Shown here in pieces: positions 10,280 to 38,693 of a stretch of 48,037 nt of DNA. The first letter of the stretch is position 1. Each line of letters starts with the position of its first letter. The position numbers and the translations under genes were made by a program. Under the pieces are notes generated by a model that had not been told where the DNA came from, made no database searches, and saw nothing but the letters and a program-made list of their open reading frames with translations. Origin of the DNA: Dehalococcoidia bacterium. Its GTDB lineage: Bacteria; Chloroflexota; Dehalococcoidia; GIF9; UBA5629. The stretch lies in contig JAFGHL010000092.1 of NCBI GenBank assembly GCA_016930155.1, positions 1-48,037 of the forward strand, written 5' to 3'.

Positions 10280-11158
10280 ATGACAAACTGGAGATCATCA
10301 CCTTTTGTGGCTCTGGCTGCGCTGGTAGGCATCACCGCGGTCTGGGGCTACACTTTCCTTATCGTGCAGTCGGCCGTCGAATTGATGCCGGTCATGGACT
10401 TTATGGCCTGGCGTTTTGCCGCGGCTGCCTTGGTCATGCTCATTCTGCGGCCGAAATGCCTGCGCGGTATCACCCGTCAGGAACTGCTGCGCGGCGCCGG
10501 ACTCGGTGTCGTGCTCGGCCTCGGGTATATCGCCCAGACTTACGGACTGCTGTACGCCTCCGCGGCTGTGTCCGGATTTATTACCGGCATGTTTGTGGTA
10601 TTGACACCTGTCATGGCATGGATCATCCTTCGCCACAAAACCGACGGGAAGACCTGGCTGCTGGTCGCGCTTGCCACGGTCGGAGTGGCCCTGCTGAGCC
10701 TGTATGGATGGTCGGTCGGCCCCGGAGAATTGCTCACGCTGGGATGCGCCGTGCTGTTCGCCATTCACATTGTCGGCCTGGGCGAATGGTCCCCCTGTTA
10801 CGATCCTTACACCTTTGCCTTCCTGCAGATCGCCACCGTGGGTGTGATATCTATTATCGCCGCCGCACCCGGCGGCATCACTCTGCCACCGGATGTGGAA
10901 GTCTGGACAACCGTCGGCATCACGGCGGTATTCGCAACCGCACTGGCCTTCATCGTGCAGACCTGGGCGCAATCGCTCGTTTCGCCCACGCGGGCCGCTA
11001 TCGTGATGACGATGGAGCCGGTATTTGCCGGATTGTTCGCCGTTATCGTAGGCGGAGAGCAGTTGACGCTGAGGACGCTGCTGGGGGGCGCCTGCATCGT
11101 GGCCGCCATGCTCATCATCAACCTGAGGTCCGTCCGCGCCACTCCCGGACATACCTGA
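10280..11158 (+). CDS. EamA/DMT family transporter
   Basis: Ten hydrophobic segments, WGYTFLIVQSAVELMPVMDFMAWRFAAAALVML, MTMEPVFAGLFAVIVGGEQLTLRTLLGGACIVAAML. Confidence 0.9.
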   Translation: MTNWRSSPFVALAALVGITAVWGYTFLIVQSAVELMPVMDFMAWRFAAAALVMLILRPKCLRGITRQELLRGAGLGVVLGLGYIAQTYGLLYASAAVSGFITGMFVVLTPVMAWIILRHKTDGKTWLLVALATVGVALLSLYGWSVGPGELLTLGCAVLFAIHIVGLGEWSPCYDPYTFAFLQIATVGVISIIAAAPGGITLPPDVEVWTTVGITAVFATALAFIVQTWAQSLVSPTRAAIVMTMEPVFAGLFAVIVGGEQLTLRTLLGGACIVAAMLIINLRSVRATPGHT

Positions 11159-11249
11159 AGCTGCCGCAATCGTTCTATTAACATCCATTTTCTCTTGCCT
11201 CAATAGCAGGCTGGAATCTTTTTATACTATACTGTTAAGCGGAACAGTA

Positions 11250-12173
11250 ATGGGAGAGACGACTCATATGATTAAACGGTTGTACAGTCACATTAATATA
11301 AAACTCACATTTATTATGCTGTGCTTGCTTCTTGTTTCGGGCGGCTGTTCAGCGCCGGGCCCTGAGGGATTCGCCATTTACCTGACCGAAGGAGATATAC
11401 CCCCTTCCAAGATGCCGATACTGAGCCATGTCGATCTCGCGGAGCAGCCCGTTCTCTCGGCGCAAGACATAATCTCGTATAATGTCATAACGCATGAGAT
11501 TCTACTGACTGCGGATGCCTTCGATCGCATCTGCAGTCTGGCTGTGCCGACCAGCGGCAGTTCGTTCATGGTCTGCATCGACCGTCAACCGATATACTGG
11601 GGCGCCTTCTGGACGCCGTTATCGTCCCAGTCATTCGGCGGCATCACTATTATGAAACCGCTCGGCTCCCAGTATACAAAGACCATACAGATTGAGCGGG
11701 GTTATCCGTCAGCGTCTTTCTTCAGCGGCGAAGACCCCAGGAACAATCTGGAGATAATGAGGTCGCTGCAGCAGGCCGGCAGATTATCGGTCATAACATC
11801 GGCTTCTCCTGTGGAAACGCTTCCGCATTCCCTTAAAGGATACGAGCTGTATTCCTGGCCGATAAATGGCCTGTGGCATTTCACACTGGTTACGGGCACC
11901 AACCGCGATAAAACACTGGATGAGATAATCAGCACGGAAAACATAGTGTCCGCAGAGGGATGGGTACATGTGCAAGTGGCAGGATTGGATGCGCTAAAAA
12001 CCCTTCTCGGCAGGCTTCCTCAAAACGAGCATGTCTTCTGGCTTGCGGGGCCGCGGTCGGAGCAAACTCCGCAATCGAACATTAACATCATGCTGCCCGC
12101 ATCAGAGATTATCGACACTATCAAGGATCACGCCAGGCAGTATGGTTTAAACCTCGTGGCGCAGTCTCCATAA
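11250..12173 (+). CDS. Putative lipoprotein, unknown function
   Basis: Signal peptide with lipobox LLVSGGC; start may be ATG 11268. Confidence 0.65.
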   Translation: MGETTHMIKRLYSHINIKLTFIMLCLLLVSGGCSAPGPEGFAIYLTEGDIPPSKMPILSHVDLAEQPVLSAQDIISYNVITHEILLTADAFDRICSLAVPTSGSSFMVCIDRQPIYWGAFWTPLSSQSFGGITIMKPLGSQYTKTIQIERGYPSASFFSGEDPRNNLEIMRSLQQAGRLSVITSASPVETLPHSLKGYELYSWPINGLWHFTLVTGTNRDKTLDEIISTENIVSAEGWVHVQVAGLDALKTLLGRLPQNEHVFWLAGPRSEQTPQSNINIMLPASEIIDTIKDHARQYGLNLVAQSP

Positions 12174-12340
12174 TGCATCACAGCATAACATCACATTGAC
12201 AAAGAAATTATGCAATAATATCCTACTATTAGAGGCAAGGACGTCTGTGATAGGGCCGGTACGCATTGACATGTGCGTTACGAATAAAAGTATTAACAAA
12301 TACCGATACTATTAATTAGCAGTTTATTAAGGGAGGCAGT

Positions 12341-13936
12341 ATGAAGCCGTCTGAGGAGAAGCGCTATGAGAAACTCAGTCCATTTGAGCTGAAAGATAAG
12401 CTCATAAAAATCGCAGGTACGAACAATGAGCGTATGATGATGAATGCCGGGCGGGGTAATCCAAACTGGATAGCCGTTACGCCACGATCAGCCTTCTATG
12501 AAATGGGTATTTTTGCCAACGAAGAAGCTCTACGCAACGTGGATTTGCCTGCAGTGGGCATGTCGCCTTTAAAGCCCGGCTCGGCTATCAGATTAAGACA
12601 TTACCTGGACCAGCATCAATCCTCACCCGGCGCCAGATTACTGCGTGAGTCACTGGATTATATCAGGGATGTGCTCACGATAGACGAGGACGACTTCACC
12701 TACGAGATGGTGGATGGCATCCTGGGCGACCACTATCCCGAGCCGGACAGGATGTTGTCGATCTGTGAGAAGGTAGTACAAAAATATCTTGACCAGGAGA
12801 TGTTCGAGGGCAATCCCCCGCCAGGCAACTTCGACCTGTTCGCCACCGAAGGCGGCACGGCCGCCATGGACTATATTTTCACCAGCCTTATGGAGAACCA
12901 CCTATTACACAAAGGGGACACTATTGCGATCGGTACGCCGATCTTCACACCTTACATTGAGATACCCCGGCTGAATGACTATGAGTTTGTTGAGCTCGAG
13001 ATAAAACAGAACGAGGATAAATACTGGCAGTATCCTGAGCAGGAAATAAACAAACTGGCCGACCCGGCCGTCAAGGCCTTCTTTCTGGTGCATCCCTCCA
13101 ATCCCACATCGGTAGCCATGGATGATTCTACGCTGAAGATGATCGCTGATTTAGTACACACCAGACGCAAAGACCTGATCATACTTACCGATGATGTATA
13201 TGGCACCTTTGTCAACGGGTTCCGGTCTATTGCAGCTGTGGCGCCGCGCAATACCATACTCGTATATTCGTTCTCCAAGTACTTCGGCGCCACGGGCTGG
13301 AGACTCGGGATCATAGGAATCCACCAGGATAATGCCTTCGATAAAATGATAGCAGCTTTGCCCGCGGAAACAAGGGCCGGTTTGCGTCAGCGTTACAGCA
13401 CTGTGGTGCTTGAACCCGATAAAATGAAGCTGATAGACCGAATGGTGGCAGACAGTAGATCGGTGGCTTTGCACCATACCGCCGGATTATCGACCCCCCA
13501 GCAGGTGATGATGACGCTGTTTTCACTCTATTGCCTGCTGGATAAGGAAAATGTCTACAAGAGAGTGGCTCAATATATAGTCGCGCACAGGTTTTCTACG
13601 CTCTATGACTCCCTGGGGATACCGGCGCCGGAGAACAAATACGACGCTCATTACTACACCACTATAGACGTACCTGCCCTGGCCAGACAACGCTACGGCG
13701 AGGAATTCACCCGTTATCTGGTTAACAAACACCAGCCCATAGATTTCGTGGTGAGACTGGCTGAAGATAAATCCATCGTGTTAATGGACGGCGGCGGATT
13801 CGACGCGCCGGAAATGTCGGTTAGAGTATCACTGGCCAACCTTCCCAACACTACCTATGCGGCCATAGGTAAAGGGATCAGCGAGCTTCTCGACACGTAC
13901 TACAACGAATGGCGGCAATCGAAGCGTAAATCATAG
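12341..13936 (+). CDS. aspD: Bifunctional aspartate transaminase / aspartate 4-decarboxylase
   Basis: 531 aa PLP fold-type I; NAGRGNPNWIAVTPRSAFYEMG, YSFSKYFGATGWRLGIIG (PLP Lys); GGGAGG SD; upstream of aspT. Confidence 0.88.
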   Translation: MKPSEEKRYEKLSPFELKDKLIKIAGTNNERMMMNAGRGNPNWIAVTPRSAFYEMGIFANEEALRNVDLPAVGMSPLKPGSAIRLRHYLDQHQSSPGARLLRESLDYIRDVLTIDEDDFTYEMVDGILGDHYPEPDRMLSICEKVVQKYLDQEMFEGNPPPGNFDLFATEGGTAAMDYIFTSLMENHLLHKGDTIAIGTPIFTPYIEIPRLNDYEFVELEIKQNEDKYWQYPEQEINKLADPAVKAFFLVHPSNPTSVAMDDSTLKMIADLVHTRRKDLIILTDDVYGTFVNGFRSIAAVAPRNTILVYSFSKYFGATGWRLGIIGIHQDNAFDKMIAALPAETRAGLRQRYSTVVLEPDKMKLIDRMVADSRSVALHHTAGLSTPQQVMMTLFSLYCLLDKENVYKRVAQYIVAHRFSTLYDSLGIPAPENKYDAHYYTTIDVPALARQRYGEEFTRYLVNKHQPIDFVVRLAEDKSIVLMDGGGFDAPEMSVRVSLANLPNTTYAAIGKGISELLDTYYNEWRQSKRKS

Positions 13937-35781: not shown

Positions 35782-36426
35782 ATGGAAAGCGAACGGATAG
35801 AGGAATACCTGGAAGCCATATACAAAAGGCAAGGCAGGGAGACCCCTGTTTCCACTTCGTCGCTGGCTGCCGACCTGGGCGTATCACAGCCTGCAGTTAC
35901 GGATATGCTGCGAACCCTGGAAAACAAGGGGTTGATCGACTACAAATCGAGGAGAGGGGCTGCGCTTACGCGCTTGGGTGAGCGAAGTGCGCTGGCAGTA
36001 ATAAGGCGTCACCGCCTTTGGGAAAGATTCCTGACTGATGTTCTGGGCATGAAATGGGACAAGGTTCATAAAGAAGCCTGCCGCCTGGAACATGCCACCT
36101 CCCCCGACATTGAGAAGGAGTTATCGAGCATACTACGCGGTATCGATACCTGTCCACACGGGCATTTCATACCGGATAAAAATGGAAATATCAAGCCGGA
36201 AAAAACCACGCTGCTGTCTGACTTCCGCCCACCACGCAAGGTGCGCATACTGGCTATCGACAATGAAGATCCCAAGTTATTGAGGAAGGTGGAGAAGTTG
36301 GGCCTGCGGCCGGGCGCGGTTGTCAGCGTATTGAAAAAAAACAAGGACGGCTCGCTCGATATTGAATTCCAGAATGCGAAATTTACGCTGGACAACGCCA
36401 CATCCTCCGTCCTGACAGCTGAGTAG
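35782..36426 (+). CDS. DtxR/MntR-family metal-dependent regulator with FeoA-like C-terminal domain
   Basis: MESERIEEYLEAIYKRQGRETPVSTSSLAADLGVSQPAVTDMLRTLENKGLIDY; ORF start 35752 lies inside the operator so ATG 35782 preferred. Confidence 0.9.
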   Translation: MESERIEEYLEAIYKRQGRETPVSTSSLAADLGVSQPAVTDMLRTLENKGLIDYKSRRGAALTRLGERSALAVIRRHRLWERFLTDVLGMKWDKVHKEACRLEHATSPDIEKELSSILRGIDTCPHGHFIPDKNGNIKPEKTTLLSDFRPPRKVRILAIDNEDPKLLRKVEKLGLRPGAVVSVLKKNKDGSLDIEFQNAKFTLDNATSSVLTAE

Positions 36427-36696
36427 GTGCCTGCGATGTTATCTCCCAACCAAGAAATCTTAATTGCTCTGGGCGAGCTTCCTCCCGGTGAAATTGCGGT
36501 GATCAAGACCTGCGGGGGCGGGCGAGGATCCATGGGAAGGTGCCTGTCATTGGGCTTCACGCCGGGCAGCGTCATTAAAATGTTAGAAAACTATCGCCGC
36601 GGTCCCGTACTGGTAAGGGTGCATGATACTGAAGTGGCAATCGGCAGGCAACTCGCTGAAAAAATAATAGTAATACGAAAGGGAGCCTCGTCATAG
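36427..36696 (+). CDS. feoA: Ferrous iron transport protein A
   Basis: 89 aa FeoA/SH3-like; MGRCLSLGFTPGSVIKMLENYRRGPVLVRVHDTEVAIGRQLAEKIIV; alternative ATG 36436. Confidence 0.88.
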   Translation: MPAMLSPNQEILIALGELPPGEIAVIKTCGGGRGSMGRCLSLGFTPGSVIKMLENYRRGPVLVRVHDTEVAIGRQLAEKIIVIRKGASS

Positions 36697-38693
36697 AAAG
36701 CACCGGGACTAAAGAAATTACGGTCGCCCTGGCCGGCGCGCCCAACGTGGGCAAAAGCACCATTTTCAACCTGCTGACCGGCCTTTCTCAGCATGTCGGC
36801 AACTGGCCGGGTAAAACGGTTGAACATAAAACAGGTGTATTTCGCCAGGGCGAACTTACGATGAACATCATCGATCTGCCCGGCACATACAGCCTTACCG
36901 CCAATTCGGTAGAGGAACAGATAGCCCGGGATTACCTGGTACATGATGATCCCGATGTGGTGGTGGCTGTTCTGAATGCTGCCAGCCTGGAACGAAATCT
37001 TTACCTTGTAGCCGAGCTGATAGAGCTTGCCCCACGCCTGGTAATTGCGCTGAACATGCTTGATGTAGCCGAGCAACAGGGTATTAAAATCGATACCGAG
37101 GCTCTGTCACGAACACTGAATATACCGGTTGTACCTATCGTAGCCCGCGCCAACCGGGGCATGCGTGAGCTGGTTAATCAGATCGAACAGGAGTACGGCA
37201 CGGCCGCCGGCCTGCCTGATGTAAAGCACATTGAATACGGTAATGAGATAACAGGCGTGATAGACCATGTTAATAGCCTGCTGGATGACGGGATAACCAC
37301 TCCATACCCGAAACATTGGACGGCCATGAAACTGCTCGAAGGCGACAAACAAATCAGCAAGCTGATCAGGGCGCGTATGCCGGCAGAACGTTGGCCGGTG
37401 CTCGATTCGTATTTGAGCGAACACGAGTCGGCAGCTGTCACTATCGCCATGCTGCGCTTCGAATGGATTGAAAGGATGATGGCGATAGCGCAGCAAAAAC
37501 ACCACGTAGGCCAGGTTTCTCTAACTGAAAAAATCGACCGCGCCGCCACACATCCCATATTAGGCCTCTTCATGCTTTTAGCCATTCTGGGAGCCATGTA
37601 CTGGCTGGTCTTTAGTATCGGCGTCCCCATGCAGGAATTCCTCGATATCAATTTGATTGTGAGGACGCGGGATTTTATATACACACTTTCATGTATGCCG
37701 CAATGGCTCCAGGGCTTTCTGGCCGACGGCGTTTTGAGCGGCGCAGGGACAGTCCTCACATTTATACCCATACTTTTCTTCTTCTTTGCAGCATGGGCAT
37801 TTTTAGAAGACACCGGCTATACGGCCCGGGCCGCGTTTGTAACAGACCGGTTTATGCATACTCTTGGGCTGCATGGCAAGTCATGCATGCCGCTGGTACT
37901 GGGCCTCGGCTGCAATGTGCCCGCTATCCTGGGTACACGCATTATAGACTCGCCTCGCGCCCGCCTGCTCACCATACTGCTGACACCGCTCGTACCCTGC
38001 ACAGGCAGAATGGCTGTAATAGCCATCATTGCCGCTGCATTCTTCGGCAGCGCAGCTGCATTGATAACAATCGGGATTATCATATTCAGCTTAATAATGA
38101 TGACTGTAGTCGGAGTGATACTCAACAAATTCGTTTTACGGGGAAAGAGCAGCGCATTGATCATGGAATTGCCGCTTTACCATGTGCCCGACCTTAAACT
38201 TATCGGCATTGTAACCTGGCAGAACATACTTGCGTTTATCAAGCGCGCCGGCACTGTGATACTGGCCGTCTCCATCCTGGTTTGGCTGCTGTCGGTAATC
38301 CCTAACGGGGATATCAACGACAGCCTGCTGGCGGAGATCGGCAAATGGCTCGAGCCTGTGGGGCGATTGATGGGACTAAACTGGCAAATGATGGTGGCGC
38401 TTCTATCCAGCTTCGTGGCCAAGGAAAATACCATCGCTACCCTGGGCGTGATTCTGAGCGGCAGCGGCGGCGATTTCACTCAGCAAATCAAGACCATTTT
38501 AACTCCGGCCGCAGCAATAGCCTTCCTGGTGGTACAGGTGCTGTTCATACCATGCGTGGCTACAATTTCCGCCATCCGACAGGAGACTGGAGGCTGGAAA
38601 TGGCCGATACTCGTACTGATCTTTCAAATGGTCCTGTCGTTTGCTATAGCTATACCGGTATACCAGGTGTTGAGGCTGTTCCCGGGCATGTAG
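36693..38693 (+). CDS. feoB: Ferrous iron transport protein B
   Basis: G1 GAPNVGKST, G3 DLPGTYSL, G4 NMLD, two gate domains. ORF track starts at a GTG inside G1 (36747); upstream frame (I/M)ESTGTKEITVALAGAPN has no ATG/GTG/TTG; AUA at 36693 with GGAG 7 nt upstream is the proposed start. Confidence 0.85.
   Translation: MESTGTKEITVALAGAPNVGKSTIFNLLTGLSQHVGNWPGKTVEHKTGVFRQGELTMNIIDLPGTYSLTANSVEEQIARDYLVHDDPDVVVAVLNAASLERNLYLVAELIELAPRLVIALNMLDVAEQQGIKIDTEALSRTLNIPVVPIVARANRGMRELVNQIEQEYGTAAGLPDVKHIEYGNEITGVIDHVNSLLDDGITTPYPKHWTAMKLLEGDKQISKLIRARMPAERWPVLDSYLSEHESAAVTIAMLRFEWIERMMAIAQQKHHVGQVSLTEKIDRAATHPILGLFMLLAILGAMYWLVFSIGVPMQEFLDINLIVRTRDFIYTLSCMPQWLQGFLADGVLSGAGTVLTFIPILFFFFAAWAFLEDTGYTARAAFVTDRFMHTLGLHGKSCMPLVLGLGCNVPAILGTRIIDSPRARLLTILLTPLVPCTGRMAVIAIIAAAFFGSAAALITIGIIIFSLIMMTVVGVILNKFVLRGKSSALIMELPLYHVPDLKLIGIVTWQNILAFIKRAGTVILAVSILVWLLSVIPNGDINDSLLAEIGKWLEPVGRLMGLNWQMMVALLSSFVAKENTIATLGVILSGSGGDFTQQIKTILTPAAAIAFLVVQVLFIPCVATISAIRQETGGWKWPILVLIFQMVLSFAIAIPVYQVLRLFPGM

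Follow-up and report, generated by a model that had tools for sequence, protein, structure and literature searches.

A feoB gene without a canonical start codon in a draft Dehalococcoidia genome, with AUA and GUC as candidate starts

Initiation has reportedly been observed from all 64 codons, in the work of Hecht et al. in 2017. AUU is known as a rare start codon. In S. aureus, the natural AUA starts of infC, ccpN and citZ lie behind an extended Shine-Dalgarno (SD) sequence and give ~10-30% of the AUG output; that of citZ, an ordinary metabolic gene, is described for the NCTC 8325 lineage, i.e., for one strain lineage (PMC13009471). The GTC start of Streptomyces sigR is proven and is repressed by IF3 (PMC5472188). 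As to the iron genes considered here, genomic fusions of FeoA and FeoB exist (PMC8980893, PMC8749426) and a DtxR-type regulator with twin FeoA domains, PgMntR, is described in P. gingivalis (PMC4805248). A literature search for translational coupling of FeoA and FeoB returned no paper.

The window, i.e., the whole stretch of 48,037 nucleotides analysed here, belongs, as contig C8, to a draft genome of 2.62 Mb in 131 contigs (98% complete, 7.95% contamination). FeoB homologues at 62-87% identity were aligned at the feoA-feoB junction, 12 relatives being scored in detail, and the SD and junction comparison covers 13 loci. The homologues bearing names are mostly Dehalococcoidia/Chloroflexi metagenome assemblies, and the closest homologue is 87% identical over 666 codons. 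The features of the feoB frame are the following.

36690-38693, + strand: feoB coding region, i.e., G domain, cytosolic helical domain, Gate and FeoB_C (Pfam PF02421, PF17910, PF07670, PF07664).
36690-36692, + strand: GTC at the position of the relatives' ATG/GTG, candidate start or lost start (junction alignment).
36693-36695, + strand: ATA, candidate start, aligned to the relatives' second codon (CTA, TTA or CTG) and overlapping the FeoA stop TAG 36694-36696 (junction alignment).
36717-36719, + strand: ATT, third and weaker candidate start (junction and SD comparison).
36747-36749, + strand: GTG picked by ORF callers, internal to Walker A (GAPNVGKS), implausible as a start (frame scan).

The FeoB frame stays open over 36660-38693 (677 codons), between a TGA at 36657-36659 and the stop at 38691-38693. 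It encodes a ferrous iron transporter with the GxPNxGKS G domain, the helical domain, Gate and FeoB_C, all with Pfam scores above cut-off and with an intact alignment. Scanned from the TGA, the frame has no ATG, GTG or TTG upstream of GTG 36747, i.e., none upstream of the first essential motif. An earlier note on this DNA had said so, and had also discarded the GTG of the ORF track as a start; both statements hold, as do its coordinates for an AUA at 36693-36695 overlapping the FeoA stop, with GGAG (36682-36685) 7 nt upstream. A start at GTC 36690 is a possibility absent from that note.

The relatives place the start precisely. ATG or GTG stands exactly 12 codons before ALAGxPNVGKS in 10/12 of them, and the codon of the window at this position is GTC. 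The two others are G228, with ATG 10 codons before the motif, and L043, with ACG at 12 codons and ATG at 8, and a canonical start is present in the FeoB frame in 12/12. The proposed AUA aligns with the relatives' second codon. The Dehalococcoidia operons (L008-L013, L037-L044) share with the window the gene order, the overlap of FeoA stop and FeoB start and a 68-87% identical FeoB, but have an ATG/GTG start and a DtxR-FeoA fusion without TAG. A non-canonical feoB start is thus not conserved in the relatives, L043 having ACG but ATG four codons on; such conservation is usual for genes of this kind, though not for S. aureus citZ, and its lack argues against a genuine non-canonical start here.

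Two observations concern the relatives themselves. In the Chloroflexi LacPavin feoB (L043, near 1860-1900), the codon aligned with the relatives' start is ACG, the overlap reads ATAG and an ATG follows four codons later, apparently another instance of a moved start; a run of N lies inside feoB in this assembly. FeoB is matched by two adjacent ORFs in three genomes of the order (L014, L015 and L018, i.e., G057:C61, G053:C234 and G056:C106), a GTPase part (~residues 7-224) and a membrane part (from ~245), suggesting a split FeoB.

The distance between start and stop constrains what can be read from the ATA. For GTC the offset to the FeoA stop is 4, the same as in C69 (a contig of this genome), G017, G018 and G026, and a TAG at offset 4 forces the second FeoB codon to be NTA. 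The presence of ATA is weak evidence for a start, since the overlapping TAG leaves just four possible codons at this place, which makes ATA a one-in-four by-product.

The alignment also indicates which base would be wrong if the sequence were. Since the relatives' start aligns with GTC, and AUA with their second codon, the base to suspect is C 36692 (GTC vs GTG/ATG) and not A 36695. A G-to-A error at 36695, which would turn an ATG at 36693 into ATA and which had been put forward as the trivial alternative, was dropped as the main error model because the relatives start one codon upstream. In its corrected form, the explanation by a sequence or consensus error would make GTG (or ATG) the true codon at 36690-36692 and feoB an ordinary gene. 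It is unlikely but deserves serious consideration: the relatives are canonical at this very position, the assembly is a draft metagenome with the contamination given above, and one substitution is enough. The codon is moreover known from a single assembled genome, and one wrong base would give a picture identical to a true loss of the start. Against an error, the site is away from the contig ends, none of the 43 ABC_tran matches across the genome has an internal stop or a broken frame and the Pfam scan of the other window ORFs gives no visibly broken gene, a result that bounds indels better than substitutions. The unusual strength of the SD is likewise what a weak start would require.

36678-36686, + strand: Shine-Dalgarno AAAGGGAGC, -7.8 kcal/mol, with a spacer of 3 to GTC and of 6 to ATA (SD scan).

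This value is the strongest of the 13 loci compared, the next being -6.0; since no 16S rRNA was found in the assembly, the standard anti-SD was assumed for these energies. The spacer to AUA is suitable, that to GTC is short. Stop and start overlap as in a coupled pair (ATAG for AUA, GTCATAG for GTC), with offsets shared by the closest relatives (1 or 4). The AUA proposed earlier is thus viable, with the best spacing and the strongest SD of the 13, although the relatives start one codon upstream, at the GTC.

A second gene of the same genome bears on this point. infC (L063, G000:C125, reverse strand) has no ATG, GTG or TTG in the stretch from the upstream stop to the IF3_N domain; an in-frame, near-cognate AUA comes after AAGGGAGGG. 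This AUA is kept in 24/25 parsed family members, the remaining one having AUC, and several relatives also have a GTG four codons upstream of it, inside AGGAGGTG.

The strong SD, the AUA of infC, the AUA starts of S. aureus and the GTC of sigR together make AUA and GUC both credible as putative feoB starts, AUA by its better spacing and GTC by its homologous position. With infC, ccpN and citZ the window shares AUA and a strong SD; these were measured by Ribo-Ret and reporters, whereas the AUA of the window aligns to the relatives' second codon (PMC13009471). With sigR it shares a GTC in the place of a required start, a strong ribosome binding site and an operon context in which stop and start overlap; the sigR start was established by mutagenesis and Western blotting, whereas the window is known from sequence alone and has an AUA beside the GTC as an alternative (PMC5472188).

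The weights given to the explanations are a matter of judgement and were not computed. The leading one, which we hold at even balance between belief and doubt, is that the canonical feoB start is truly lost and that AUA or GUC supports weak initiation coupled to FeoA. The lineage's feoB would have lost its start, with GTC now at 36690-36692 where the relatives have GTG or ATG, and would still be translated at a reduced rate, most likely from AUA 36693 and less likely from GUC 36690. Ribosomes finishing FeoA would terminate at UAG 36694-36696, which overlies the candidate start, and the strong SD AAAGGGAG could hold them there; initiation would be coupled to FeoA translation because of these two circumstances. 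The expected rate would be low and IF3-sensitive.

A start further downstream, at AUU 36717 (MTVALAGAPNVGKS...), is very unlikely. Such a protein would retain the entire G1 motif, the first 8-9 FeoB residues are poorly conserved among the relatives, AUU is used elsewhere as a start and L043 has apparently moved its start downstream (ATG at -8). Its SD, however, reaches only -4.0 kcal/mol, it lies 23 nt beyond the FeoA stop, and its N terminus would be shorter than in the 12 relatives compared.

36678-36684, + strand: heptamer A_AAG_GGA, read in the FeoA frame; it forms part of the purine-rich Shine-Dalgarno and is absent from the relatives (junction comparison).

A programmed -1 frameshift at this heptamer, giving a FeoA-FeoB fusion product, was the other option proposed earlier. 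Its coordinates and frame were right, i.e., a -1 slip does enter the FeoB frame, and FeoA-FeoB fusions exist in genomes. Those of Bacteroides have the two domains adjacent as in the window, but are genomic fusions made without a frameshift, which is not the state of the window (PMC8980893). The earlier note itself had held that a normal ATG in relatives lacking the heptamer would refute its reading, and for the slip this is what the junctions give: the heptamer occurs in 0/12 relatives, which all have independent canonical FeoB starts. An in-frame heptamer also arises in 7.9% of the mononucleotide shuffles of the overlap, i.e., within chance, heptamers of the GGN type shift less efficiently in E. 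coli (PMC4066793), and no stimulatory downstream structure was found, the fold being no better than that of shuffles (z +0.45 and +0.61, for a test that covers folds other than pseudoknots). The relatives, finally, fuse FeoA to DtxR and not to FeoB. The frameshift, unconserved, of a weak motif class, lacking a stimulator and at chance level, was rejected as the main explanation and is the least probable of those considered.

The gene upstream also differs from that of the relatives.

35782-36426, + strand: DtxR-type metal-dependent repressor (HTH, dimerisation and SH3/FeoA-like domains; Pfam PF01325, PF02742, PF04023), starting in the alignment at MESERIEEYLEA and ending at TAG 36424-36426.
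36424-36426, + strand: in-frame TAG splitting the DtxR-FeoA fusion of the relatives, CAG in the closest relative G006 (alignment).
36436-36696, + strand: FeoA domain as a separate ORF, from ATG 36436 (SD TGAGTAGGTG, spacer 6) or GTG 36427 (Pfam PF04023, SD scan).

In the relatives examined, FeoA is the C-terminal domain of a ~304-residue DtxR-type regulator that already holds one FeoA-like SH3 domain, a fusion that had previously been missed; the separate feoA of the window is the product of the in-frame TAG. This fused regulator resembles PgMntR, i.e., DtxR plus two FeoA-type domains, whereas the TAG of the window detaches the second FeoA domain, which has a start of its own (PMC4805248). The TAG lies within the linker between the domains, with GTG 36427 and ATG 36436 after it. 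Since only 7 of the 288 nonsense substitutions possible in the closest relative's intact operon fall in the linker, it has the appearance of a tolerated split rather than of a lesion arisen at random. Its reading as a sign of decay was set aside on the grounds of its linker position and of the SD and ATG that come next.

L060 (G000:C69), 10497-13405, carries a second operon of a dtxR-feoA fusion and feoB, with a normal ATG and a FeoB 76% identical. It may be a paralogue or lie on a contaminant contig; in view of the contamination figure of 7.95%, it may belong to another cell.

The FeoB of the window has dN/dS = 0.125 vs G006; with its 666 codons and 87% identity to the closest homologue, this shows that the coding frame is no product of chance. 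Parsimony assigns 22 nonsynonymous and 36 synonymous changes to the window branch (random mutation would give 3.07 to 1, p about 2e-9); the sister branch of G006 has 26 and 31, so that the ratio of the window branch is not higher. No sign of a pseudogene (relaxed selection, stops, frameshifts) was found in the FeoB frame. Because of the low dN/dS, the branch ratios and the absence of stops and frame breaks, purifying selection must have acted on feoB at least until recently; a very recent loss is possible.

These results bear on a recent inactivation, in which the start would be lost, this copy no longer made and the C69 copy working. Such an event is improbable. The intact operon on C69 is in its favour and would, if it belongs to the same organism, let the window copy decay, a point that also stands against continued weak initiation; the in-frame TAG upstream, in the DtxR-FeoA gene, also counts in its favour. 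On the other side, selection shows no relaxation, the TAG is of the tolerated kind described above and C69 may be a contaminant contig.

If the start was indeed lost and feoB is weakly initiated at one of the two candidate codons, its product is predicted to carry the N-terminal peptide fMet-ESTGTKEITVALAG... in the case of AUA and fMet-IESTGTKE... in that of GUC. Should the codon be real, the locus also illustrates how automatic gene callers misplace starts of this type; here the start was put inside the Walker motif, which would lead to an annotated protein without its GTPase motif. If the codon is an error, the locus is a clean example of one base making an ordinary gene an apparent case of recoding. 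If the codon is real, a transporter gene joins the very short list of bacterial genes without ATG, GTG or TTG starts, and the non-canonical start of feoB would be a new case of a kind already known. It is doubtful, yet conceivable, that the whole operon was rebuilt in this lineage, with DtxR-FeoA split by the linker TAG and FeoB given AUA or GUC as its start, produced in sub-stoichiometric amounts relative to FeoA and controlled by IF3, whose own mRNA (infC) seems to start at AUA in this genome. Such an operon would be the transporter analogue of the sigR case.
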